The position numbers and the translations under genes are program-made. A DNA stretch of 64,000 bases. It comes from Magnetococcales bacterium DCbin4. Lineage in GTDB: Bacteria > Pseudomonadota > Magnetococcia > Magnetococcales > UBA8363. The notes under the pieces were generated by a model that saw only the letters and a program-made list of their open reading frames with translations, was not told the DNA's origin and ran no database searches. Below are positions 10,136 through 39,262 of the stretch, one piece after another. Position 1 is the stretch's first letter. Each line of letters starts with the position of its first letter. The DNA lies in assembly GCA_002753735.1 (NCBI GenBank), contig PEAN01000015.1, positions 1 through 64,000 on the forward strand, in the 5' to 3' direction.

Positions 10136-10567
10136 TCATGGGCGGTGTCCCGGGTTTTCATTGTGTTTCAGGATGGTTTGGGTGAACACCAGCAACTCAT
10201 CCAGGTGTTGGGTAATGATGGAAACGGTGATGGGGAGTTGCAGGGTTTGGTAGTCATGTACGGCGATGTTGCGAAAGCCCACCATGCGTTTGAGGGCATC
10301 GGCCAGTTTGGCCGGGATCCAGCCGCCTCGGGCCAGCAGGTCAAAAACGTTGCGTGCGCCTTGGGGGATTCCCAGGCGTTCCCGGCGGATCAGATGTTGC
10401 CCCATATCCAGAGCTGCCTCACAGGCGCGTTGGATATTGAGGATGGCGGCGTCCTGGCGGGTGAAATCCTGAGCAAAGGTTTCCGGGCTTTTGTGATACT
10501 CCTCATGGGCACGGGCCACACAACGCTCAATGGTGGCCGATTTGTTGAGCAGCACATCATCGACCAT
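10136..10567 (-). CDS. hepT: HEPN toxin, HepT family (DUF86)
   Basis: The 143-residue HEPN-fold protein has the diagnostic R-x4-H-x-Y motif as RNIAVHDY near residue 110. In characterised pairs the R and H form the RNase site and the Tyr is AMPylated by the MntA antitoxin, which silences the toxin. The open frame extends to 10675, but the ATG at 10567 (MVDDVLL) matches family length and overlaps the end of mntA by 11 bases, typical of this operon. On the minus strand it follows mntA. It borders the methyltransferase operon, consistent with a defence island. Confidence 0.88.
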   Translation of the reverse strand: MVDDVLLNKSATIERCVARAHEEYHKSPETFAQDFTRQDAAILNIQRACEAALDMGQHLIRRERLGIPQGARNVFDLLARGGWIPAKLADALKRMVGFRNIAVHDYQTLQLPITVSIITQHLDELLVFTQTILKHNENPGHRP

Positions 10568-10958
10568 GGATGATTCCCTCCTTTGCGATGATCGCCAGAA
10601 GTGGTGCGCGGGCTTCGTCCAGGGCGGTCTTTTCGCTGAGGATGAAGCTTTCGTAGAGGGCCGCCCGGGCGTCACGCGCCCACAACCGCTGCCCGGTGGT
10701 GATGATCCGATACTGCATCACCGTGCTCGCCGCACGTAAATCCAGCAGGTCTACCGGGCATCCGGCGATATCGGCGAGGTCGCTTGCCAAGTGCCACAAA
10801 GCGACCGGATCCGCTTTTCCGGGCACGAGCAGCGCCAGATCCAGATCACTGTCCGGGGCGCTGCCGCCGGAGATGCGGCTGCCAAAGGCGTAGAGCGCCA
10901 GCAGGTCGGGTTGATGCATTTGCACCTTATGAATCAGATCCGAATAGGGGAACTCCAT
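10557..10958 (-). CDS. mntA: MntA-type nucleotidyltransferase antitoxin
   Basis: This 133-residue minimal nucleotidyltransferase has the GSx10DxD signature (ALYAFGSRISGG, then PDSDLDLALL at about residues 25-43). In known MntA/HepT modules it transfers AMP to the tyrosine of the HEPN toxin. The gene is first in the operon and overlaps hepT. Its start lies 80 bases from the divergent methyltransferase frame. All key residues are visible, so the pair looks functional. Confidence 0.9.
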   Translation of the reverse strand: MEFPYSDLIHKVQMHQPDLLALYAFGSRISGGSAPDSDLDLALLVPGKADPVALWHLASDLADIAGCPVDLLDLRAASTVMQYRIITTGQRLWARDARAALYESFILSEKTALDEARAPLLAIIAKEGIIHGR

Positions 10959-11038: not shown

Positions 11039-12226
11039 GTGTATACACTTGACCCGGGGCTGAGTGCTCCATGTGAGATGTTGGTTAGAACTTTTGTAAA
11101 GCGGGATACGCTTATTTTTCAGATGATGACCCATGGATCCGAATACACTCAACGAAACCGTACTGACCGGCCAATCCGCAGCCTGACGGCCATTGATCTC
11201 TTTTGTGGGTCCGGTGCTGTGACCAGTGGACTCAAAGAAGCGGGATTCCGTGTTTTGGCAGCGGTGGATGTGGACGACGTCGCATGCCAGACATATCGCA
11301 TGAATCACCCTGAAGTCAAGCTGTTGCACGGGGACATCGCAGATCTCGATCCCGCGGTGCTGAAAAAGTGTGTGATGGGTGAACTCGACCTGCTCGCCAT
11401 CTGTGCCCCATGTCAGCCATTCAGCACCCAGAATCGTAAGCGCTTCGGCAGCGACGAACGGGCGCAATTGTTGCTCATGACCATACCCATCATTGAGACC
11501 CTTCTGCCCAGGGCGATCTTCGTTGAAAACGTGCCCGGGTTGGGGAAGACCGAGGTTCTCCCCAATTTCAAGAGTGCGCTCCAACGGTTGGGGTACACGC
11601 CAAACGATCCGGTAGTGATCAATGCGGTCGATCTCGGGGTTCCCCAGCGTCGAAAACGCACGATCATGTTCGCCTGTCGGGATGGCTCCGTGGCCCCGGT
11701 TGATTTCGCGAAGCTGTCACGCGGGAAGTCGACCTCCGTCAGGGATTGGATCAGTGACCTGCCCCCCCCTCCGATTGGGCGACCGCCCTCTTGTGTGGAC
11801 CCACTCCATATCGCAAGGAAACATGCCCCGATCACGCTGGAACGTTTGAAGCACGTTCCGAAAAACGGTGGCCGCCGCAGTGATATCCCGGAGGCGCTTC
11901 AACTCAAATGCCATCGGGGGTTGGACCGGGGCGAATTCCCGGATACTTATGGTCGGCTGGCCTGGGATGAACCCGCGCCAACGATCACAACCGGGTGTAC
12001 CGATCTGACCCGTGGCCGCTTCGCGCATCCAGAAGAGGACCGTGCCATCACCGCGAGGGAGGCCGCTTGCTTGCAGACCTTCAACCGGGACTACCGCTTC
12101 GCTGGGAATCTCCAACAAATCGCCACCCAAATCGGGAATGCCGTTCCACCGTTGATGATGAAGGCGCTCGCTGATCCCATCGCCACTGCGTTGGGTGCTG
12201 CACGGGAACCGATGCATACGGAGTGA
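11039..12226 (+). CDS. DNA (cytosine-5)-methyltransferase
   Basis: The C5 methyltransferase motifs are in order: I (AIDLFCGSGA, residues 51-60), IV with the catalytic Cys (APCQPFS, C125), VI (FVENVPGL, 161-168), VIII (VPQRRKRTIMFA) and X (QIGNAVPPLMMKAL). The target-recognition part between VIII and IX is short, about 130 residues, so the target sequence cannot be read. Start choice is uncertain: GTG 11039 has GGAG six bases upstream, but motif I starts at residue 51 and ATG codons at 11078 and 11123 would give more usual N-termini. A vsr gene starts nine bases after the stop, the classic partner of a Dcm-type enzyme. It is the first gene of a four-gene operon. Confidence 0.93.
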   Translation: MYTLDPGLSAPCEMLVRTFVKRDTLIFQMMTHGSEYTQRNRTDRPIRSLTAIDLFCGSGAVTSGLKEAGFRVLAAVDVDDVACQTYRMNHPEVKLLHGDIADLDPAVLKKCVMGELDLLAICAPCQPFSTQNRKRFGSDERAQLLLMTIPIIETLLPRAIFVENVPGLGKTEVLPNFKSALQRLGYTPNDPVVINAVDLGVPQRRKRTIMFACRDGSVAPVDFAKLSRGKSTSVRDWISDLPPPPIGRPPSCVDPLHIARKHAPITLERLKHVPKNGGRRSDIPEALQLKCHRGLDRGEFPDTYGRLAWDEPAPTITTGCTDLTRGRFAHPEEDRAITAREAACLQTFNRDYRFAGNLQQIATQIGNAVPPLMMKALADPIATALGAAREPMHTE

Positions 12227-12235
12227 TCCCAACCC

Positions 12236-12667
12236 ATGAGCCGTCCCCCAGCCTCTTCGCCCACGGTTTCCAGCGTGATGCGCAAAGTGGGTAGCCGGAA
12301 CACGGGCCCCGAGATCGCCATTCGTCAGTTTTTGTTTGCACGTGGCCTCCGTTACAGGGTTCAGTATCGACCGGGGGATGTGGATATCGGTCGTGCAACC
12401 ATCGATATCGCCTTCCCCGGCAAGAGGGTCGCGGTGTTCATTGATGGCTGTTTCTGGCATGGCTGCCCGGTACACGGGACGGTTCCCAAGGCCAACGCCG
12501 ACTGGTGGCGGGCGAAGCTCGAAGGGAACCGGGTACGGGATATCCGGGTACGGGGGATTCTCCGTGACGGGAGTTGGGATGTGCTCGCATTCTGGGAGCA
12601 CGAATCCGCGGAGGGTGTGGTTCGGGCAATCGTGGCACGAATACGTGGTGGAACCGAACGGGGATAG
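12236..12667 (+). CDS. vsr: Very short patch repair endonuclease
   Basis: The 143-residue Vsr protein nicks beside T:G mismatches that arise when 5-methylcytosine deaminates. Family hallmarks are the N-terminal MRKVGSRNTGPEIAIRQ, the catalytic DIAFPGKRVAVFIDG strand, and the zinc-associated CFWHGCPVHG with the W-rich stretch after it. It sits between the methyltransferase and the GHKL protein. Its stop codon is immediately followed by the GTG of the next gene, so co-transcription is nearly certain. In this setting it could also act as a restriction nuclease; sequence cannot separate the two roles. Confidence 0.93.
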   Translation: MSRPPASSPTVSSVMRKVGSRNTGPEIAIRQFLFARGLRYRVQYRPGDVDIGRATIDIAFPGKRVAVFIDGCFWHGCPVHGTVPKANADWWRAKLEGNRVRDIRVRGILRDGSWDVLAFWEHESAEGVVRAIVARIRGGTERG

Positions 12668-15600
12668 GTGACGATGGCCGGACTACGGGTCAGGGCGAGA
12701 ACGGTGGACATGTTGGGGCGTCAGCAGATCGCTGGCATCCCAACCGCGATCCACGAGCTGTTCAAGAACGCCCATGATGCCTATGCGCGTCGGGTGGAGG
12801 TGGATTACCACCGCAAACAACGCGTCCTCATCCTGCGGGATGACGGGTTGGGCATGACCCGGGAGGAGGTGGAGAGCCGGTGGCTCACCCTCGGCACCGA
12901 GTGCAAATTGAAGGTCAATGCGTCCATTGGAGATGTCTGGACCGGACCTGAGGGTCTCGAAAGCCGTGTGGTCATGGGGGAGAAAGGGATCGGTCGCCTC
13001 GCCGTCGCGGTGATCGCCCCCATTACCTTGATGTTGACACGTGCCATCCGTCCCGACGGCCACGATGATCTCGTGGCCGTTCTCGTGCATTGGGGTGTGT
13101 TCGAGCAGCCCGGCATCGATCTGGATGAAGTCCTCATCCCCATTCACGAATTCCCCGGCGGATCGCTCCCGGATCGTGTCGCGTTGGGGCGGATGATCGG
13201 GGAGCTGCGGGAGAATATCCGGGGGCTCAGCGGTCAGCTCCCCACGGGTGCGGTGGACACCCTCTTCGCAAGTCTTGATACCGCTGCCCGGATTGACCCC
13301 TCCAAGCTGGATGTCACGCTGAACAATCATCGCGAAAAGCCGCTCACGCTTTCCGGTGACGGCCATGGCACCTGGTTTTTCTGCCTTCCCGTGGCCCCTG
13401 AACTCGATCTCGATATCGATCATCGGTCCGATGGTGGCAAAAGCGGCGACGGGATCGAATCCAAGCTTCAGCAGATTCTACTCGGTTTCGCCAATTCCAT
13501 GGACCGTGAGCATCGCCAAGTCCTGGTCACCGAATTCCGGGACCACGGATTGGATGGTGAGGTGGTTGAACTGATCGGGGGGAAGAATTTCTTCGACCAC
13601 AGTGCATTCACCCTGACGGATCATCTCATCGAGGGGGCGTTTGACGAATATGGACAATTTCATGGGAGTATCCGCTTCTACCAGAATGAACCCCGTGAGA
13701 TGACCTGTTCCTGGACCGGGGGCAAAGGGCGCCCCATTCGCTGTGGACCATTCAAATTCCGGCTCGGTGTACTGATGGGTGAGCTTGGCGAAAGCGCATT
13801 GAACGCTACCGATCACGCGGTCATGCGGCAACGGTTGAATGCGTTGGGAGGTCTCTATGTGTACAGGGACGGCATCCGGGTCCTCCCCTACGGTACCTGG
13901 GATCACGACTTCCTGGGTATTGAACATCGTCGAACGTTGGCGGCAAAGGACTGGTTCTACTCCTACCGTCGCATGATCGGGTACGTGGACCTCCGTCATG
14001 ATCATAATCACGCCTTGAACGAAAAGGCGGGACGGGAGGGATTTCGGGAGAACTTGGCGTTCCGGGATTTCCGTGAAGTCCTTGTCAATCTCTTCAGGGA
14101 GACCGCCATTCGTTTTTTCCGTGAGGGTTCCAACGAGGGTGATGAGTTCCGTGAAAAGCGGACCCTGTTGGAGGAGGGGCATGCGCAACTCCAGGCCAGG
14201 AAAAGGCGGGCGGATGAGCGCCGCAAGGAGTTCATTCAGGCACTCCGAGCATTCCGCAAAGAAGCGGAAGGTGGGGGGTTCCACCAGCGCGCCCGCACAT
14301 TGCATGATCATTTCACCGCCCGTCTGAAGGTTGTGTCTGAACTCAGTGATTCCGGGGAGTTCCTCGATGCCCTGTTCGCTTTGGAGCGTGAATTCCTGGC
14401 CGGGATCGGAGCATTCAACCGGGATCTCACCCTGATCAAGCCGGCCCGTTTGGCCCTGGGCCGTCAGGAGAAGGAGTGGGAGGTCCACCAGCGCCTCATG
14501 CCCGGCATTCGGGCGGATACCGTTGGGATGTTGGAGCAGGGGATCGGGGAGGCCATCTCCAGGTTGGCGCGTGACCGGGTGGATACCGATCAACGTCGCA
14601 TCGTCGCATTGAACATGCTCGGCAGTGGACGGGAGTCGGTTCGGAAAGAGGCGATGCAGTACCGGCGGAAAACCGAGAGAACGGCGGAAGCGTTCCGGAC
14701 GGAACTGAAAAAGCTGATGAACCGGGAGACCAGGGGAATCTCACAGGATCTGGAAAATCTGATCGCCGACTTCACCCGCGATACGGTGGTGCATCCGGAC
14801 CGTATCGAGACACGGCTCATGGAGGTTGAGAAACGCTTGGTCGAGATGCGCGACGGACACGTCAAGGTGCTCAACGATATCCGTGGGCAGTTGGAGGAGA
14901 TCACCGAGAGCATCCGGACCGGCAGGGCCATGGATCACGGCGCGGATGTACTGGGGAATCGACTCGCCCAGTTGGAGGATCAACGGGAGTTCGAAGCGCA
15001 ATTCGTTCAGATCGGGATGACGGTCGGCATTCTCGGACATGAGTTCGAACGGGCGGCTGCGGGCCTCCGCAGTGGCATGCGCGACTTGAAACCCTGGGCG
15101 GACAAGACCCCGGGCTTGATGAGTGTCTACAAGCGGCTCCGGGAATCCTTCGAGTACCTGGATGGATATCTGATGCTGCTCGACCCCCTGGGCCGTCGCA
15201 TGACGCGGCGAAGTGTCGAGGTGCCGGGGAGCGATATCCATCGGTACCTCAGGAGGATCTTCGGCACTCAATTGGAAGGGACGGGGGTTGCTTTGCAGAC
15301 CACATCGGCCTTCGAGGCCCAGCGCATCAGGTGTCGGAGTTCCTCTTTGCTCGGTGCCATGACCAACCTGGTGGACAACGCCATTTACTGGGTGCAGCGT
15401 TCGGTAACCGGGGTGAAGGTGATCACCCTGGATGCGGACGATCACGGGTTTCTGGTACGGAATACCGGCCCGGGCATTTCCCGGTTCGATGCACCCCATA
15501 TTTTCGACTTCGGATGGTCGAGTCGACCCGGTGGGCGGGGAATGGGACTCTCCGTTTCCCGGCAGGCGCTGCTGGGGGAGGATTTGAGCTTGGAGTTGAT

Positions 15601-15688
15601 CACCATTGGGGAGGCGGTGGAACCGGTGTTCAGGATCGCGCCGCTCGGGAACGATCAGGACGGGGACGATCAAGGGGGAGGGGCATGA
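12668..15688 (+). CDS. Double-GHKL ATPase: MutL/MORC-like N-terminus and histidine-kinase-like C-terminus
   Basis: This large 1006-residue protein has two separate ATP-binding modules. The N-terminal one has HELFKNAHDAYA (29-40), RDDGLGMT (57-64) and GEKGIGRLAV (104-113), the pattern of MutL, Hsp90 and prokaryotic MORC-type ATPases. Residues about 500-760 are charged and coiled-coil-like. The C-terminal one follows a HisKA-like helix with GHEFE (H791, possible phosphoacceptor), then an N-box (TNLVDNAIYW, 899-908), a G1 box (NTGPGI, 932-937) and a G2 box (GRGMGLSVSR, 956-965). The start is GTG 12668, abutting the vsr stop, or ATG 12674. The stop overlaps the next gene as ATGA. GHKL ATPases of this kind are known beside restriction-modification genes. 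The direct function is unproven. Confidence 0.85.
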   Translation: MTMAGLRVRARTVDMLGRQQIAGIPTAIHELFKNAHDAYARRVEVDYHRKQRVLILRDDGLGMTREEVESRWLTLGTECKLKVNASIGDVWTGPEGLESRVVMGEKGIGRLAVAVIAPITLMLTRAIRPDGHDDLVAVLVHWGVFEQPGIDLDEVLIPIHEFPGGSLPDRVALGRMIGELRENIRGLSGQLPTGAVDTLFASLDTAARIDPSKLDVTLNNHREKPLTLSGDGHGTWFFCLPVAPELDLDIDHRSDGGKSGDGIESKLQQILLGFANSMDREHRQVLVTEFRDHGLDGEVVELIGGKNFFDHSAFTLTDHLIEGAFDEYGQFHGSIRFYQNEPREMTCSWTGGKGRPIRCGPFKFRLGVLMGELGESALNATDHAVMRQRLNALGGLYVYRDGIRVLPYGTWDHDFLGIEHRRTLAAKDWFYSYRRMIGYVDLRHDHNHALNEKAGREGFRENLAFRDFREVLVNLFRETAIRFFREGSNEGDEFREKRTLLEEGHAQLQARKRRADERRKEFIQALRAFRKEAEGGGFHQRARTLHDHFTARLKVVSELSDSGEFLDALFALEREFLAGIGAFNRDLTLIKPARLALGRQEKEWEVHQRLMPGIRADTVGMLEQGIGEAISRLARDRVDTDQRRIVALNMLGSGRESVRKEAMQYRRKTERTAEAFRTELKKLMNRETRGISQDLENLIADFTRDTVVHPDRIETRLMEVEKRLVEMRDGHVKVLNDIRGQLEEITESIRTGRAMDHGADVLGNRLAQLEDQREFEAQFVQIGMTVGILGHEFERAAAGLRSGMRDLKPWADKTPGLMSVYKRLRESFEYLDGYLMLLDPLGRRMTRRSVEVPGSDIHRYLRRIFGTQLEGTGVALQTTSAFEAQRIRCRSSSLLGAMTNLVDNAIYWVQRSVTGVKVITLDADDHGFLVRNTGPGISRFDAPHIFDFGWSSRPGGRGMGLSVSRQALLGEDLSLELITIGEAVEPVFRIAPLGNDQDGDDQGGGA

Positions 15689-17496
15689 CAACCCAGCCGG
15701 AACAACATTGGCGTGAGCACCTGGAAAGGGCGGCCAAAGCATTCATAAGGACTGCTGTCGTGATCGATAATGAGGCGGTTCTCAGTACTGAACCGCCATT
15801 CAAATCCGCGTCGAATCAAGGCGGGGAACATTCCCACGAACATTTTTCCCAACAGGCCGCCATTCCCGATGACGATGGTTTCGGGGAGCGGGTGGACGAT
15901 GATGGGATTATAATGGATGAAGGGGAAGATTCAGGGGGGAGCGGTCGGAATGATCGTGCCGGGAACGGCAACGGTGACGATGTGAAAGGGGATCACCAAC
16001 TCGACCTCCGGTCCATGAGCGAGGCATTCGCAAAGCACGGAATCGTCTGTGGGATGATGCTCCCCCATATGGAAGGGTGTGCCGCGGATATCCCCGGGTT
16101 CGTGAATAGGGCTGTGGAATTCTCCCTGCATGCCGATGTGGTCATCGTGGACTGGAAGCTCCATGAGGATAAAACAGGGGTTGATCGGGCTTCCCAGCAA
16201 ATCATCGTCAAGCTCCTTCGGAAAGATCAATCCAACAAGGGGCGCCTGCGATTGATTTGCGTGTACACAGGTGACCCGGTTCAGGATGATCCCTCAAGGG
16301 ACACGATCTCCAGTGGATTGCGTGGCATATTGGAAGCCTCGGGAATTAATTCTGAAGTCGGCACTTTTGAGCATTGGGATGGGATTGGTCCTTACATCAA
16401 GGGACCACATTACCTGATCGCCATTGTGAAAAAGGATCGCGGCACCACCCCGGGAATTTCAGAGGAGGGGTTGCCCGGTTTCCTGGTTCATGCTTTCACG
16501 TATATCATTGATGGCATGCTTCCCGCTTTTTCGGTGGCAGCGGTCGCTGCGATCCGGGAGAACGTCCATTATGTGCTGTCCGACTTCAGTGCCGATCTGG
16601 ACAGGGCCTACATCGCCAACCGGGCGATCAGCGATCCACCCGGCGACGTGGCGGAAATGATGAGGAAGCTTCTGCTCGCCGAGTTTGACGGGGTGGTCAG
16701 TGCTGCGGGGGTGACGGACACCTATTTGGGCGTTGATGCATTGGAGAAATGGTGTGGTGTCCAGTCCCGTTTCCGTGATGACACCGGGATCAAGACAAAG
16801 AACGTGCAATCCACCGAAGAACTGATCAAGGGATTGTTCCGGGTTGGCGGTGCTGGGGAGAAGGGGGGGGATTTTCAGATCAAAGCCGAGAAGCGAAAGC
16901 GGATTTCGTATTGTTTGCATCAAAGCGATGCCGATAGCGTCATGATGGAAGCACGTTTTGCGCGAATGTGCCATAATAAGCGGGAGCGCTATGGACGCAA
17001 TCATACACGGGACGGTTGGCTCCCCTCATTGGGGTTCGGGACGATCCTGAAAACCATTGAGCGGGATCCGCAAGACCCTGCGGATCAATATCTGCTGTGT
17101 GTGACGCCCGCCTGCGACACGATTCGCCTCCAAGGTTCGACCAGAATGGCATTCTTGGAGTTGCGACATGTGGGATCGATTTCCCCCACGAATTCTGGAA
17201 TCAAGGATAAGTTCAACTTGATCTTGGTGTGCGATGATACCGATCATCAGGTCGCATTCATGTTGGAGCCGCGTTTTGAACATGTACGGGTGCTGGCATT
17301 CGACCCGCGAAATGGACAGATTTCGGCACAGGGGGATAATGATGGTTTCGTCTTTATTGAACAAAATAATAATAGGTGGCGTTGGATCGGGGAGTTGCGC
17401 CCGGAGCGGGTCCAACATGAACTCCACAACTTGACATCGCACTGGTCACGGATCGGTATTGACCAGTCAGAGTGGTTGCGACTATCAGGAAAGTAG
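15685..17496 (+). CDS. Receiver-like protein of the methyltransferase operon
   Basis: The 603-residue protein starts at an ATG overlapping the GHKL stop, with GGGGGAGGGG upstream. Its first 250 residues contain the pieces of a receiver domain in order: TAVVIDNE (D28), VVIVDWKL (D156, candidate phosphoacceptor), LICVYTGDP (T195) and YLIAIVKKD (K249/K250). A long acidic and Gly-rich insert (about 40-105) separates the first two. The remaining 350 residues match nothing I recognise; they include a helical part around FLVHAFTYIIDGMLPAFSV and a beta-rich end. No nuclease motif is evident. Translational coupling to the kinase-like GHKL protein suggests the two interact. The receiver assignment is an inference from motifs only. 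Confidence 0.7.
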   Translation: MTTQPEQHWREHLERAAKAFIRTAVVIDNEAVLSTEPPFKSASNQGGEHSHEHFSQQAAIPDDDGFGERVDDDGIIMDEGEDSGGSGRNDRAGNGNGDDVKGDHQLDLRSMSEAFAKHGIVCGMMLPHMEGCAADIPGFVNRAVEFSLHADVVIVDWKLHEDKTGVDRASQQIIVKLLRKDQSNKGRLRLICVYTGDPVQDDPSRDTISSGLRGILEASGINSEVGTFEHWDGIGPYIKGPHYLIAIVKKDRGTTPGISEEGLPGFLVHAFTYIIDGMLPAFSVAAVAAIRENVHYVLSDFSADLDRAYIANRAISDPPGDVAEMMRKLLLAEFDGVVSAAGVTDTYLGVDALEKWCGVQSRFRDDTGIKTKNVQSTEELIKGLFRVGGAGEKGGDFQIKAEKRKRISYCLHQSDADSVMMEARFARMCHNKRERYGRNHTRDGWLPSLGFGTILKTIERDPQDPADQYLLCVTPACDTIRLQGSTRMAFLELRHVGSISPTNSGIKDKFNLILVCDDTDHQVAFMLEPRFEHVRVLAFDPRNGQISAQGDNDGFVFIEQNNNRWRWIGELRPERVQHELHNLTSHWSRIGIDQSEWLRLSGK

Positions 17497-17680: not shown

Positions 17681-19666
17681 ATGGCAATGAAACGCAAAAA
17701 TAATGGGCGCGTCCTTTCCCTGGTCAGCCTGCTGTGTCTTTCTACGCTGGCAGGTGGATGTGGAGGCGGTGGCGATTCGGGTTCTTCGTCAACGGCGACC
17801 AGCGCTCCGGCTGAAGTGTTGGTGGGCAAATTTCTTGACGGTCCCACCGACGGATTGAACTACCGTACCAGCGGTAACGATTCGGGTGCCACGGATGCCA
17901 AGGGGCAGTTCACCTATGTCAGCGGGGAGAGCATCTCCTTCTATCTCGGAGGATTGCCTCTGGGATCCACTTCGGCCCGAGGGGTGATCACCCCCATTGA
18001 TTTGGTCAGTGGCGGCTATGTGGACCACGATGAGGTGGTGAACCTTTCCCGTTTTCTGCAAACGCTCGATGAAGACGGCAATCCCAGCAATGGGATTACC
18101 ATATCGGCGCAAGCCCGATCAGCGGCGCAAATTCATTTTCCCTCCGGTCCCGATTATTCACGGTTTTTCAAGACTGATGGCCATGGGCAGGGGTTTGCCA
18201 GGGATTCCCAGGTGGCTGGGGAATCGGTCGCGACCAAGGGATTGGAAAACTATTTCAAAGATGCCGGGATTTTTCGTTATAAGAAATCCAATTGGGTTGA
18301 GCAGGACAGCATCGCGGGTTTTCTGGTCCCTGAACGCTTTGCCACCAATCATCTGCGGGGGACCATCCAGAATCAGACCGAAAATTGGAGTCTGACGTTG
18401 ACCCCGACGCAATCGTCTTCGAGCAATACCCCGGGGACGACGACCACCACGACCAGCAGTGCCATCAATGCACCGGGTACCGCAGCGTTCACAGTGTATT
18501 ATAAAACCACCGAGACGACGACCAGTACGACCGAAAATACCTTCCAGTATTATGATCCTGACAACCATCCATTGGTGGACGGTACCATTACCTTTCCCGG
18601 GATTGGGATCGTGACCCAGGTTACTTCTCCGACAACTTCGACGGGTACGACCGGTACGACGACGGGTACTGCCGCTACGACGACCCGGAATGTGGCAGTG
18701 ACGGGAACGCTGACGGTGACCTTCAAGGGTGCCACGGTGAGCATGGTGTCAAAAATTGGTTCCAGTGGCAGGAATCAAGGGCAGATCAATATTGAACTGT
18801 TGGAAAGTTCTACCAGCAACACCGCCACCTTCACGCCTGATGCGACCACCACGGAAAGCGTGACCATTCCCGCTTCGGAAATTTCCTCCCTGGTGTTGAA
18901 GGCGACGGTGGACCAGGATCAGGGGACGATCAGTGACAGCAAATTTTCCATCAAGTTTGCCAACAGTACCTGGCAGAACAGCCTGAATCTGGGGACGGTC
19001 TATGGTACCTGGAGTCGGGGCAGCGACAGCGGTAACATCATTTTCAACGAGTTGTATCGCAGTCTGGCCGCCGGCAGCACACGCAAGACCTGGGAACTTT
19101 ATGGGATTGGCTATACCGACCAGGAGATGACCGCCGAACTTTCTGGCAGTGTCGGGGCCTACACCCAACTGTCCAATGATCGGACCAACCTGAAGCTGAT
19201 CACCGATTCTACCATCTGGTCGGACAAGAACAATCCGATCTCTCTGCAAGGATATGTCGGTTTCGAACTGGTGGTTTACGACGATTCGGTCCGAGTCGAT
19301 AAATTGACGGTATCGAATGCTTCAGGTGGTTATACCCCCGTCACGGAAACCAATGAGCATGAATTTTCCAACGGCAACAAACGCTATTTCAATCTCGCCT
19401 CGTCGAACATGGCTGAAAGTACCGACCTGAAGACGGTTTTGTCCAAGGATTTGAGTGAGCGGACTTCCGGGACCACTTCCACGACGACCACGACCGATAC
19501 GAGCAGTCAGGATGGGACCGAAACCTGGGCAATCAAGGATGTCACGCAAGGTCCGGGGATGGTCTCCGTGGTATTTACCAAAAATTCTTCCCTCAAGGGG
19601 GCGGGATATGCGTTTCAATCGACTCTGGCGGCACAGGATTATCTGATCATGAAATTGGCGCAATAA
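17681..19666 (+). CDS. Thr/Ser-rich lipoprotein
   Basis: The signal peptide ends in a lipobox (LAGGC), followed by a Gly/Ser linker, so the protein is probably lipid-anchored on the outer membrane. Residues about 45-105 (VGKFLDGPTDGLNYR, FTYVSGESISFYLGGLPLG) form a module I have seen near the N-terminus of other bacterial surface lipoproteins, often with adhesin-like tails. Middle stretches (about 245-290 and 310-350) are runs of Thr with Ser and Gly, likely an extended stalk. The ATG at 17681 has an AGAGG upstream; ATG 17687 is an alternative. It is a single gene after the defence operon. Function is unknown. Confidence 0.7.
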   Translation: MAMKRKNNGRVLSLVSLLCLSTLAGGCGGGGDSGSSSTATSAPAEVLVGKFLDGPTDGLNYRTSGNDSGATDAKGQFTYVSGESISFYLGGLPLGSTSARGVITPIDLVSGGYVDHDEVVNLSRFLQTLDEDGNPSNGITISAQARSAAQIHFPSGPDYSRFFKTDGHGQGFARDSQVAGESVATKGLENYFKDAGIFRYKKSNWVEQDSIAGFLVPERFATNHLRGTIQNQTENWSLTLTPTQSSSSNTPGTTTTTTSSAINAPGTAAFTVYYKTTETTTSTTENTFQYYDPDNHPLVDGTITFPGIGIVTQVTSPTTSTGTTGTTTGTAATTTRNVAVTGTLTVTFKGATVSMVSKIGSSGRNQGQINIELLESSTSNTATFTPDATTTESVTIPASEISSLVLKATVDQDQGTISDSKFSIKFANSTWQNSLNLGTVYGTWSRGSDSGNIIFNELYRSLAAGSTRKTWELYGIGYTDQEMTAELSGSVGAYTQLSNDRTNLKLITDSTIWSDKNNPISLQGYVGFELVVYDDSVRVDKLTVSNASGGYTPVTETNEHEFSNGNKRYFNLASSNMAESTDLKTVLSKDLSERTSGTTSTTTTTDTSSQDGTETWAIKDVTQGPGMVSVVFTKNSSLKGAGYAFQSTLAAQDYLIMKLAQ

Positions 19667-35161: not shown

Positions 35162-38100
35162 TCATGATGATTTTAAATTGTTTACGCCCTGGTTGGCAGG
35201 CTCCGGGGGACTGGGCTTTCTGGTAGAAACATCAATGACGATGACTTGAATGGAATACCTGGGGGTTGAAACAATGGTCTGATGCAATGCTTCTTCAAGC
35301 TCCTGACAAGTTGAAGGTGTTTTTTTGCCACGCTTCTTTGGAGGTACTTGTAGTCCACGTCCATGCGCTCCGAACCAGAAAACCAAATAAATACCGAACC
35401 CCTTCGTTTTTGGATCACGAACATAATTGGGAATCAACTGATCGTCCGCAGCGTTCCAAAGCTGGTCATGATCATCGCGTTTGATCTCAATTGGTATACT
35501 TATGTTTTCAAAACATATTTTGATATCGGCTCGCTTGTCATCCGCATAATGGCCTTCTGGATCGGAATGAATCTTCATTGGAGAAAGAGATGTGCGCAAT
35601 CTTTCCAACAGGCGATCCCGTCCGTCCTCTTCAGGAATCGGGCATGTCGTTCGTCCGTGAGCGTCCAGATTCCAGAAGGATTTGTAGCCATCCGTATTTC
35701 CATCCCTTAGTTCCCTGGCGATGGTGCGAAGGTGATCTACAACCAAAGCTTGAAGATCTGCCGCTGTGGCCGGGGAATGGTTATTGACCACGTTGACAAC
35801 GTTCTCCCATGTTGTGGGTTCGAATAATTTGTCGGCCTTTTTCTGGAGATGTTGGGCCAGGGAATGGCGAAGCTTATTGCGCCATGCAATGAGATTCTCG
35901 TCATCAATGAGCGATTGCAAGACAGTGGTGGCCTCTTCCGTTGTTTCTGCGGCAATTTTATTGATCAACTCTTTGATACATTGTGATCTCATATATTCTG
36001 GTTCACTCCATCCAACTCCATCTCCGATATCTTTTGGAGTGTAGATTTTTCCATAGAAAAGGATCAGATCAATAATGGTTGTAATGTTTAATGATAATCC
36101 CGGTATTTTATTCTCTCTTTCCTTGTTATCCTGATAGAAAATATCAAAAATAAAATCAAATAAAACACCGGCATCCTCTATTTCCAAAGAAAGAATGGGT
36201 TCGATTTCCGGCCATTTGAACTCTTCAAGAAGGTACGCAACGGCTGCCCACTGCGGCCAGCCTGGAATGTGATCCTTCTTTCTGCGATGAACCATTAATA
36301 TTAATGATTTCAACTCAGAACGATCCCCCCATATCAAGGCTGAAATTAATAGATTTGTTAAGTTGTTTCCTTTCATCTCTGGGCAATCCGCCAATAGAGG
36401 AATTGCAACTCTTTTGGCGATACCAGGCCATGTTTCAAGAGCATCCAATCTTCTGACATATTCCCTTCCAAATTTCAATTGTGGAAGCCAAAACTCTTTG
36501 GATGCGTGTGCAGCCAAGTCCGGATTCGTTGTGATAATATTTTCAAACCATTGAGGAATATGATCATTAGAGCCACGTAATAGCCACAAGGCGAAAGCTG
36601 AAGATAGCGTTGCATCGGAAAGTGTTTTCTTATCTCCAACGCTGATCAAGTCCATTGCTGATAAGATGACAGGAGCATATTTTGATTCATTGTAAGCGAT
36701 ACATTGCCTGCCAATTTCATCTGGTGAAGGGAGTGCATGGGTCATCAAGCATTGTACAAATCCTGCTTCTGCTGCCAGGGCAATCTCAATGGAGGTTTTT
36801 TCAACCAGACGCTGGTGCGGTTTTGTTGTTTTTATTGCATCCATGGACCAACTTTGATAGATTTCTGCAAGATCGAAAATTGCAATGAGATCCGTTCCAT
36901 TCCGAATACCATCAAGTCGGCGGGACAGGTCAGAAATATATTTATCTTTTTCTTTTTTTCTATTTAATTCCGACTCCATTCTCATTTGAGAAAATTTAAT
37001 AGTATCTTCATCTAATATGGAAAATAAAAATGGATCAAGATGCTGTTTGAACCGTGGGAATTTCCCAACAAAAATGAAGGCTCGGTCCAGCCAATGTGAT
37101 TCGGTTTGTTGCTGAATTAATAGTTTGATTCCAATCCGAAACATCGCTGCGGCAATACGCTCATCCTGGTTTTCCACGGCCAATTCTAAACACCAGTCTG
37201 CAAACCATGAGGGAGCTTCCATGTTTTGCAACAGCAGCCAAAAAAAATAGGTAGATTTTTCGATGTCTCCTGCGTCTTTTCTTTGTAACCAATATAAATA
37301 GAGTTTCTTGACTTTCTGAGGGTGAGAATTCATCCAGTTTTGTACTCGGGTTGCATGTGATTTTTTTCGATTATGATCAAGAATATTATGACCATGTTTG
37401 TCGATTACAACCTGCAACCATGTATACAGGTCTTCGAGCGAAACAGTTTCTCCATGTTGTTCCAGTGACCGGGATAATATCTCTCCTGCAAGATACTTGA
37501 AAGCTGAAGATGCCGTATGATCTCCATGGAATCCATTTTTAATATCCAATATGACCATTATGAGAGATGGTAATAATTCATCATTGGTTTTCTTGGGAAG
37601 TTTATGAGTCAAAAATTGATAATAGTAACCAAAATAATTGGCAAGTGGTGGAACAAGAAAGCGTGCAATTTCCCTGGGTGGCAAATGCTCAGGATACAAC
37701 TTTTCTAAAAGAATAGCACGAAATTCATGGTCACCATTTTGATCTTCGTTTCCTTCCAACCCTTCAAGAACTGGTATCAAATCCTTCATTCGATTTGCAA
37801 AGTGGGTGGCAAATATCTTTGTGGCGTGTTCTCGAAGATGAGATGGAACAGTTGGGTTGTTGATGAATGCGAACAGGGTATCTGAGGAAACAATAGGTCC
37901 TTTTCCATGCTGAATGATATCCAGAACTGTTATCAGCAGGTGAGTTGGTACATGTTGCCAATCAGATAAGATGGACTCAAATCGATCTTTCAATTTTGGA
38001 TCTGCAAGTCGTCCAAGTGGGTGACTTTCCCAGTGGCCTCCACGGAACCAGGGATTTTTCTTTGCCAACTCGGCAAGTCCATCCAAAATATTTTCTTTTC

Positions 38101-39262
38101 GGGATAAGGGTAGTGATTCGGGATCACCATACAGGATCAGCCCCATGGGGTCTGTATGGATGAATGAAGAAATGACCGAGTCGGGGCAGAGTGTGGTGAC
38201 CCAGGCGTGCAATCCGCGCAGGTGGGAAGGAACCAGTCCGTTTTTTGATGTCAGAAGATGGCGCACCCGCCCAGCCGGAAGTCCGTGATCGATCTGATGA
38301 ACCAGAAAATGGGCTGCTAAATATTCCGCCATCGTGCGATGATAATACGAAACGCGTTCAGGGGCGGGATTTCGGAAAAGTTTGGTTTGAGCCGCCTGCT
38401 TCAAGGGAAGGGGGGATCCATCAACTTGTGTCAGGTCGGGGAATCCTTCTTCATCGTAACCAACATCAAATGCAATTCCGGCAAGATCGGCGCGAAGGAT
38501 CAGGGTACACAACAACCCGGCAGCCAGGATTAGCTGGTCTGATGAAGGGGGGGCTGTCATCGCTTTACGGTGGGTCTTATTGTGTTCTTTAACCAACTTT
38601 GAACATGTGCGTTCAAACAACGCTTTGCGGGTTACCGGCCATTCCTGTCCCTGAGATACGACTTCCAACACCATTTCCAGACTTTGTGGATTGGTGATCC
38701 AATCAGCGATACCTGACTGTCTTGCCTGTTTCAGGAACGCCTGTCCATCAGGTACGCCTCTTTTTTCTATGATTTCCAGAATCTGCTCTTCGGAAAGTGG
38801 TTCCAGGCGAATAACGGTGACCTTCCCTGATTGTGAAGCTTCGCTGAGGTTGCTTTTGTCCAAATCGCCGAACCAATCTGCTGTGCGGCAGGAGAGGCGG
38901 AATTTGGGGGGATTAAATTCTTGCAAACGTCCAATGATGGCATCTAGAGCTTCATTGCCGTTTGCTTTTCCGGCTCGATGTTCATCCAGGCCGTCCAGGT
39001 AGAGGGTTCTTCCCTCAAGTCCTTGAGGATTTCTCGGGGGACAGAACTCCCGGATCGTCAGGTACTTCGCATGTTCTTCTTCTATGGCGGCCTGACAGAA
39101 ACTGGTGGTCTTGCCCATACCGGGCTCACCAAGAACGACCAGTGCCGGTTCAGAAAAAAACGCGGAGATCGGTCTTGGATTGTTTTCTTTTCCATTTTGT
39201 TCATCTACGCGGGAAAAGAGGCGAGGGACAATAATGCGATTGATATCATTCATACAAGCCAT
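35162..39262 (-). CDS. STAND/NACHT-like NTPase with probable C-terminal PD-(D/E)XK nuclease
   Basis: This 1366-residue protein has an N-terminal P-loop NTPase with Walker A GEPGMGKTT (45-53) and an acidic Walker B LYLDGLDEH (87-95), as in NACHT/AAA-type STAND ATPases, then a winged-helix-like part (to about 340). The long middle (about 350-1190) is helical and may be HEAT- or TPR-like repeats. The end holds RADIKI (D1246) and PIEIKR (E1259, K1261), a good PD-(D/E)XK core. STAND NTPases joined to nucleases are known antiphage proteins; a C-terminal nuclease would be the reverse of the usual Avs order. The gene is visibly more AT-rich than its neighbours, with many AAT/ATA codons, suggesting transfer. 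It stands alone. Confidence 0.78.
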   Translation of the reverse strand: MACMNDINRIIVPRLFSRVDEQNGKENNPRPISAFFSEPALVVLGEPGMGKTTSFCQAAIEEEHAKYLTIREFCPPRNPQGLEGRTLYLDGLDEHRAGKANGNEALDAIIGRLQEFNPPKFRLSCRTADWFGDLDKSNLSEASQSGKVTVIRLEPLSEEQILEIIEKRGVPDGQAFLKQARQSGIADWITNPQSLEMVLEVVSQGQEWPVTRKALFERTCSKLVKEHNKTHRKAMTAPPSSDQLILAAGLLCTLILRADLAGIAFDVGYDEEGFPDLTQVDGSPLPLKQAAQTKLFRNPAPERVSYYHRTMAEYLAAHFLVHQIDHGLPAGRVRHLLTSKNGLVPSHLRGLHAWVTTLCPDSVISSFIHTDPMGLILYGDPESLPLSRKENILDGLAELAKKNPWFRGGHWESHPLGRLADPKLKDRFESILSDWQHVPTHLLITVLDIIQHGKGPIVSSDTLFAFINNPTVPSHLREHATKIFATHFANRMKDLIPVLEGLEGNEDQNGDHEFRAILLEKLYPEHLPPREIARFLVPPLANYFGYYYQFLTHKLPKKTNDELLPSLIMVILDIKNGFHGDHTASSAFKYLAGEILSRSLEQHGETVSLEDLYTWLQVVIDKHGHNILDHNRKKSHATRVQNWMNSHPQKVKKLYLYWLQRKDAGDIEKSTYFFWLLLQNMEAPSWFADWCLELAVENQDERIAAAMFRIGIKLLIQQQTESHWLDRAFIFVGKFPRFKQHLDPFLFSILDEDTIKFSQMRMESELNRKKEKDKYISDLSRRLDGIRNGTDLIAIFDLAEIYQSWSMDAIKTTKPHQRLVEKTSIEIALAAEAGFVQCLMTHALPSPDEIGRQCIAYNESKYAPVILSAMDLISVGDKKTLSDATLSSAFALWLLRGSNDHIPQWFENIITTNPDLAAHASKEFWLPQLKFGREYVRRLDALETWPGIAKRVAIPLLADCPEMKGNNLTNLLISALIWGDRSELKSLILMVHRRKKDHIPGWPQWAAVAYLLEEFKWPEIEPILSLEIEDAGVLFDFIFDIFYQDNKERENKIPGLSLNITTIIDLILFYGKIYTPKDIGDGVGWSEPEYMRSQCIKELINKIAAETTEEATTVLQSLIDDENLIAWRNKLRHSLAQHLQKKADKLFEPTTWENVVNVVNNHSPATAADLQALVVDHLRTIARELRDGNTDGYKSFWNLDAHGRTTCPIPEEDGRDRLLERLRTSLSPMKIHSDPEGHYADDKRADIKICFENISIPIEIKRDDHDQLWNAADDQLIPNYVRDPKTKGFGIYLVFWFGAHGRGLQVPPKKRGKKTPSTCQELEEALHQTIVSTPRYSIQVIVIDVSTRKPSPPEPANQGVNNLKSS

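Follow-up and report, generated by a model that had tools for sequence, protein, structure and literature searches.

A Magnetococcales operon that may couple a C5 cytosine methylase to a phosphorelay with a conserved receiver tail

The first 64,000 nucleotides of contig PEAN01000015.1 (assembly GCA_002753735.1, Magnetococcales bacterium DCbin4), which we refer to as the window, contain a tight operon of four + strand genes denoted M, V, A and R. Their start and stop codons were read directly and yielded gaps of 9, 0 and −4 bases; together with the family matches, this confirmed an earlier sequence-only reading of the locus as four same-strand genes for a C5 methyltransferase, a Vsr protein, a GHKL ATPase and a receiver-like protein. 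M (11126..12226; 366 amino acids) is a C5 cytosine DNA methyltransferase that matches PF00145 (E-value 3.5e-54) and, above its cut-off, TIGR00675. Its frame is open back to a GTG at 11039, the ATG at 11126 being the likelier start, and the motifs PCQPFS, ENV, QRRKR and QIGNAVPP can be read directly; M supplies the methyltransferase gene expected of a type II restriction-modification system. V (12236..12667; 143 amino acids) is a Vsr-type very-short-patch endonuclease and an optional accessory (PF03852, 1.4e-18; 103 bits against TIGR00632, above the curated cut-off of 97.85). The guanine-cytosine (GC) fraction of the operon is ∼0.59, compared with 0.53–0.55 around it. Beyond Vsr and weak matches confined to GHKL domains, family profile searches matched no restriction enzyme family in the operon, which may nevertheless encode an enzyme of an undescribed restriction type.

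A (12668..15688; 1006 amino acids) is composed of a GHKL-S5 ATPase clamp, a coiled coil and a histidine-kinase core, with matches to HATPase_c_3 (residues 26–117), HEF_HK and HATPase_c; located beside a C5 methylase, this combination bears out the proposed restriction-modification context of the GHKL ATPase. The N-terminal adenosine triphosphate (ATP) site (residues 7–118; 12686..13021) is of the paraMORC/MutL/HgiDII-like type. Its residues E30, N34, D37 and D58-x-G60-x-G62 and the motif GxKGIGR are invariant in 16/16 homologues, and the HgiDII/BbrUII model NF050001 matches these N-terminal 112 residues only (2.5e-16; 59 bits compared with a cut-off of 550). Further downstream, the HEF_HK or DHp segment (residues 781–847; 15008..15208; PF19191, 3.5e-22) contains the candidate phospho-acceptor H791 (15038-15040), which forms with E792 a pair that is invariant among the 16 homologues. 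The kinase catalytic domain follows (residues 896–968; 15353..15571; PF02518, 7.1e-13), with N900, N904, G956, G958 and G960 of its ATP site likewise invariant. The AlphaFold model of A, with a predicted local distance difference test (pLDDT) score of 77.7, shows a GHKL-S5 front half, a helical region at about residues 462–836 and a kinase back half; Foldseek matched the front half to Hsp90 and MutL, and the back half to ZraS and NifL. Of the double GHKL ATPase proposed earlier, the two ATP sites stand, but the C-terminal one is a histidine-kinase catalytic domain behind a DHp helix and not a second MORC-type ATPase.

R (15685..17496; 603 amino acids), which lies directly downstream of A in relatives, is receiver-like as had been predicted (PF19192, Response_reg_2, 9e-27; residues 20–214). 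The receiver domain (residues 20–250; 15742..16434) was delimited from conserved residues and includes the candidate phospho-acceptor D156 (16150-16152); among 16 aligned proteins D28, D151 and D156 are invariant and T195 is nearly so. A helical middle part leads to a C-terminal, beta-rich output domain (residues 446–603; 17020..17493), recognized by conservation and denoted PxCD, in which G452, C477, D478 and G591 are invariant in 16/16 proteins and C472 and R589 are also conserved, giving the signatures C477-D478 and R589-x-G591. No Pfam match to R other than Response_reg_2 was found at E ≤ 1, and none to a DNA-binding output domain. A PDB sequence search with the R alignment gave no match, a fold search of BFVD no credible match, and PADLOC no model matching R; searches of phages and GTDB contigs with back-translated patterns found no close relatives. 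Pfam profile and fold searches of A and R revealed no nuclease motif of known type. In the structure model of R, which is of modest quality (pLDDT 61), the C-terminal part retrieved several MazF chains with Foldseek (best E 6e-3, probability 0.99). Profile alignment (hhalign) of this tail with PemK/MazF (PF02452) was negative, and the corresponding tail from the second branch described below was marginal (score 19.7 compared with 18.6 for the best of 60 block-shuffled controls). The MazF likeness is therefore weak, concerns the predicted fold only, and is no more than a lead.

The two defining domains were introduced in 2021 as HEF_HK (PF19191) and Response_reg_2 (PF19192), in gene sets that consist of a C5 methylase, a histidine-kinase-like paraMORC ATPase, a receiver and often Vsr (Bellieny-Rabelo 2021, PMC8011034). 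In 644 regions, the two genes were linked in 91.6%, with C5 methylases upstream and Vsr genes in 20 genera; the dominant architecture, group 1, was HATPase_c_3 + HEF_HK + HATPase_c, Vsr was most often downstream of R, and no further domain was reported in R (PMC8011034). The set was proposed to be a cytoplasmic two-component-like system related to paraMORC ATPases (PMC8011034; Iyer 2008, PMC2292703). Judged from its sequence, M-V-A-R is a member of this kind: the window shares both Pfam domains, the group 1 architecture, the upstream C5 methylase and a nearby Vsr gene, as well as the core histidine with its acidic neighbour (H791-E792) and the active-site aspartate (D156). It differs in the placement of Vsr between M and A, and at the end of strand beta-1 it has D-N and not the two acids D-D. 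The sequence-only reading had suspected a distinct, reduced system, and had counted membership in an already described defence family with the same gene set against that idea; the 2021 description of the M, A, R and optional V set (PMC8011034) largely places the operon in such a family, whose role in defence is putative.

Recurrence of the window's branch was assessed on 17 loci with flanks plus two from plasmids, loci cut by contig ends being left out; relatives are designated by L numbers. M-A-R proved to be the recurring core, contiguous in nearly all loci fetched (L029 has the order A-R-M), so the recurrence expected for all four genes holds for three of them and V is optional. V occurs in about half of the loci, downstream of R, upstream of M or, as in the window, between M and A. 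Distances among loci correlate most strongly for A-R (0.96), followed by M-A (0.81) and M-R (0.80); those involving V (0.19–0.33, 7–8 loci only) are not significant. The contiguity in nearly all relatives and the A-R correlation of r = 0.96 argue that the M-A-R arrangement is not due to chance. A frame-broken vsr remnant (L025:13384-13989) separates the intact M and A genes of L025, a locus with the second-highest M similarity to the window (51%), and thus has the position that V has in the window. V was rejected as the core nuclease since relatives lack it, have it at another place or carry it in decayed form, and since it is not co-inherited; its optionality likewise makes the T:G or strand nicking that had been suggested as part of the system unlikely as a core activity. 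Common signalling proteins and two pairs put down to chance were the only other families seen repeatedly in the flanks of M-A-R in the loci fetched, and a hidden separate restriction enzyme was rejected on this ground for the window's branch. Two further observations concern individual relatives: an insertion with a large serine recombinase gene splits R at L035:9714-14899, and L029:2894-6613, next to a second M-V pair, encodes a 1239-residue protein that combines a protein-kinase-like domain with an ORC-CDC6-like ATPase.

A search with the C-terminal domain of R revealed a second branch of such gene sets, initially as ∼355-residue proteins with an ordinary receiver (PF00072) beside a 724-residue A (L105 and L106). 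A GTDB contig scan found 44 loci with a relative of this short A in bacteria and archaea; adding three plasmid loci and removing weak or duplicate ones gave 43 loci with a full-length A (the branch includes L105:1984-8214, L106:2103-6659 and L110-L152). The members scanned match neither HEF_HK (PF19191) nor Response_reg_2 (PF19192). Short A retains two GHKL sites and lacks most of the coiled coil. R is directly downstream of A in 41/41 loci, M directly upstream in 33/42, and V is present in 16/34. The kinase pair H503-E504 is invariant in 43/43 loci, and the receiver is canonical (E10, D11, D60, T91), with D11 and D60 invariant in 39. Homology of the PxCD domains of the two branches is indicated by hhalign (Prob 96, E 4e-9 over 32 columns), unrelated controls being negative. 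Short-A loci such as L106, L110 and L147 thus share with the window the order M-A-R(-V), the two GHKL sites in A and the PxCD tail, but differ in an A without HEF_HK match, a PF00072 receiver and, in some cases, EcoRII, HNH_2 or mza-type neighbours. EcoRII genes accompany the A-R pair in L105 and L147, and an HNH_2 gene directly upstream of A (L122:5235-5966, L124:232-1002) occupies the slot of V in the window. At L108:176-10183, V-M-A-R is followed by DUF3883, mzaB- and mzaC-type genes, and at L136:3-8981 genes of the mzaC, mzaD and mzaE type lie directly upstream of A-R; these mza assignments are below the strict equivalog cut-offs. We found no earlier description of the short-A, canonical-receiver branch in the literature searched. 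What is new here is a conserved PxCD domain in R that is common to this second branch. In Poribacteria (L129, L131, L134, L140, L142, L152), genes of one ∼540-residue family were noted near or directly downstream of R, and the copy checked (L142:9286-10905) encodes an N6/N4 DNA methylase.

Several observations point to mobility of the set. PF19192 was found in 10/399 genomes of the phylum and 4/48 of the order, at lower rates in other classes; plasmid-borne copies of the gene set occur, and Campylobacter conjugative plasmids carry the short-branch A-R pair. Five genus relatives have the gene at 17681 without M, V, A or R beside it. Because of this absence, and given the GC fraction above that of the surroundings, the operon is most simply explained as a horizontal insertion, which it probably is.

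On this basis, the operon may be a horizontally mobile, methylase-linked phosphorelay module with an M-A-R core and optional V, most likely serving in defence against foreign DNA and probably against phages, a reading to which we assign an even chance of being correct. It agrees with the possible defence role suggested previously. M would methylate cytosines at a host motif, as its family assignment implies, and V would repair T:G mismatches that arise by deamination at M sites, such repair being the established activity of Vsr proteins; comparison of the loci suggests that this step is dispensable. The N-terminal GHKL-S5 half of soluble A is predicted from its fold to act as an ATP-driven clamp that may sense DNA or a DNA complex, probably one without the host mark; sensing of unmethylated DNA by such a clamp is suggested by its MutL, MORC and GHKL-Shedu relatives (PMC2292703, PMC12137116). 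The C-terminal kinase of A would then phosphorylate the conserved H791, from which the phosphate would pass to D156 of R, and phosphorylation of R would release the PxCD domain to make the response, as its conservation with two different receivers suggests. That response could be DNA restriction, a toxin-like shutdown or the control of a restriction enzyme, of which we favour direct restriction or defence. A methylation-linked phosphorelay fits the locus because the M-A-R trio is steady, the kinase and receiver residues are intact, and one output domain is combined with two kinds of receiver. The window's branch shows no recurring family of separate restriction enzymes, which makes the A-R pair itself the leading candidate for the activity that restricts. 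More tentatively, and with the doubt outweighing the confidence, we propose restriction by phosphorelay, in which the GHKL clamp kinase would sense methylation and trigger a receiver, with the PxCD tail, MazF-like in fold but with a new active site, as the effector. This logic would be common to two deep branches in bacteria and archaea, one with Response_reg_2 and the other with an ordinary receiver.

The following points weigh against this phosphorelay reading. The open literature searched contains no phage or biochemical test of the HEF_HK / Response_reg_2 family. The beta-1 acid pair of R is D28-N29 in the window (N29, 15769-15771), compared with Asp at position 29 in 15/15 other aligned homologues, and metal binding and phosphorylation may consequently be weakened in this copy; the family match is clear and N29 is one substitution only, which leaves R in the family while making its phosphorylation doubtful. 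PxCD is a putative effector with a putative enzymatic role, the DNA fetched for a few sister loci (e.g. L107) contains no M, and the restriction enzymes carried by some relatives imply that A-R may regulate rather than restrict.

The last of these points leads to the best-surviving alternative, in which A-R is a regulatory two-component system that relays a cytoplasmic cue to control the methylase or a restriction enzyme, whether encoded within the set or at another site, and does not itself restrict. The conserved kinase and receiver residues suit it equally, it stays viable because a few sister loci carry EcoRII or HNH genes, and the 2021 authors lean the same way (PMC8011034). R, however, lacks a DNA-binding output domain in Pfam, most loci lack a recognizable restriction enzyme to regulate, and M directly adjoins A in most of them; we regard regulation as rather unlikely but a serious contender. 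Somewhat less probable is a two-part ATP-dependent restriction enzyme of the HgiDII/BbrUII type, in which the receiver and DHp folds would be structural remnants without phosphorelay. HgiDII/BbrUII is indeed the closest NCBIfam model to the N-terminal GHKL of A, the partner is always a C5 methylase, and N29 in the window receiver also speaks for it, but no long member has lost H791-E792, D156 or the second ATP site, every short member retains H503-E504 and D60, and a known nuclease motif was not found in either protein. A housekeeping role unrelated to defence, as an epigenetic set of the Dcm/Vsr-like type that includes a signalling pair, as suggested by the dcm-vsr resemblance of V and M and by a family without demonstrated defence function, is very improbable given the patchy, horizontally acquired distribution (1–2.5% of genomes; genus relatives have the flanking gene without the set beside it) and the restriction and mza neighbours in relatives.

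Comparison with established defence systems places the phosphorelay reading in context. MZA (MzaB-E, anti-phage) has a MutL-like GHKL ATPase in a methylase/Vsr setting, and the locus had been likened to a reduced Mza set. This does not hold: A scores 15 bits against MzaB, compared with a cut-off of 850, and Z1, AIPR and a helicase are absent from the operon, as had been noted. None of the four operon proteins, nor the neighbouring MntA/HepT pair, matches Z1, AIPR or a PD-(D/E)xK Mza protein. What survives of the comparison is the A-R pair beside mza-type genes in two sister-branch relatives (L108, L136). HgiDII/BbrUII and the GHKL-Shedu protein VcSduA (PMC12137116) likewise tie an N-terminal GHKL ATPase to DNA restriction, but A carries a histidine-kinase core, not a nuclease, and has a partner receiver protein. 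A kinase-to-receiver logic for defence is also found elsewhere. Detocs is a two-component-like anti-phage system whose PNP-type effector cleaves ATP; the window R has no match to such an effector, and in the window a methylase is linked. The gene set was recognized in sequence data in 2021, and the PxCD domain with the second branch now offers a first concrete effector candidate and points to specific residues, H791, D156 and C477. If the phosphorelay reading is true, methylation-based immunity would include two-component signalling, and restriction-modification would be connected with phosphorelays; the shared R tail suggests how methylation could control a defence switch.

Elsewhere in the window, a HepT/MntA type VII toxin-antitoxin pair (10136-10958, − strand) is divergent from the operon; both matches are above the NCBIfam cut-offs, in agreement with the adjoining MntA/HepT pair proposed before. 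The count of CCNGG in the window is an overrepresentation, yet the motif is self-overlapping and has no tie to M, and was not used. On the − strand, in a segment with a GC fraction of about 0.40–0.45, a 1366-residue P-loop ATPase-like protein (35162-39262) has no Pfam match and a weak match to LmuA (E 2e-4); it is possibly a separate defence gene.

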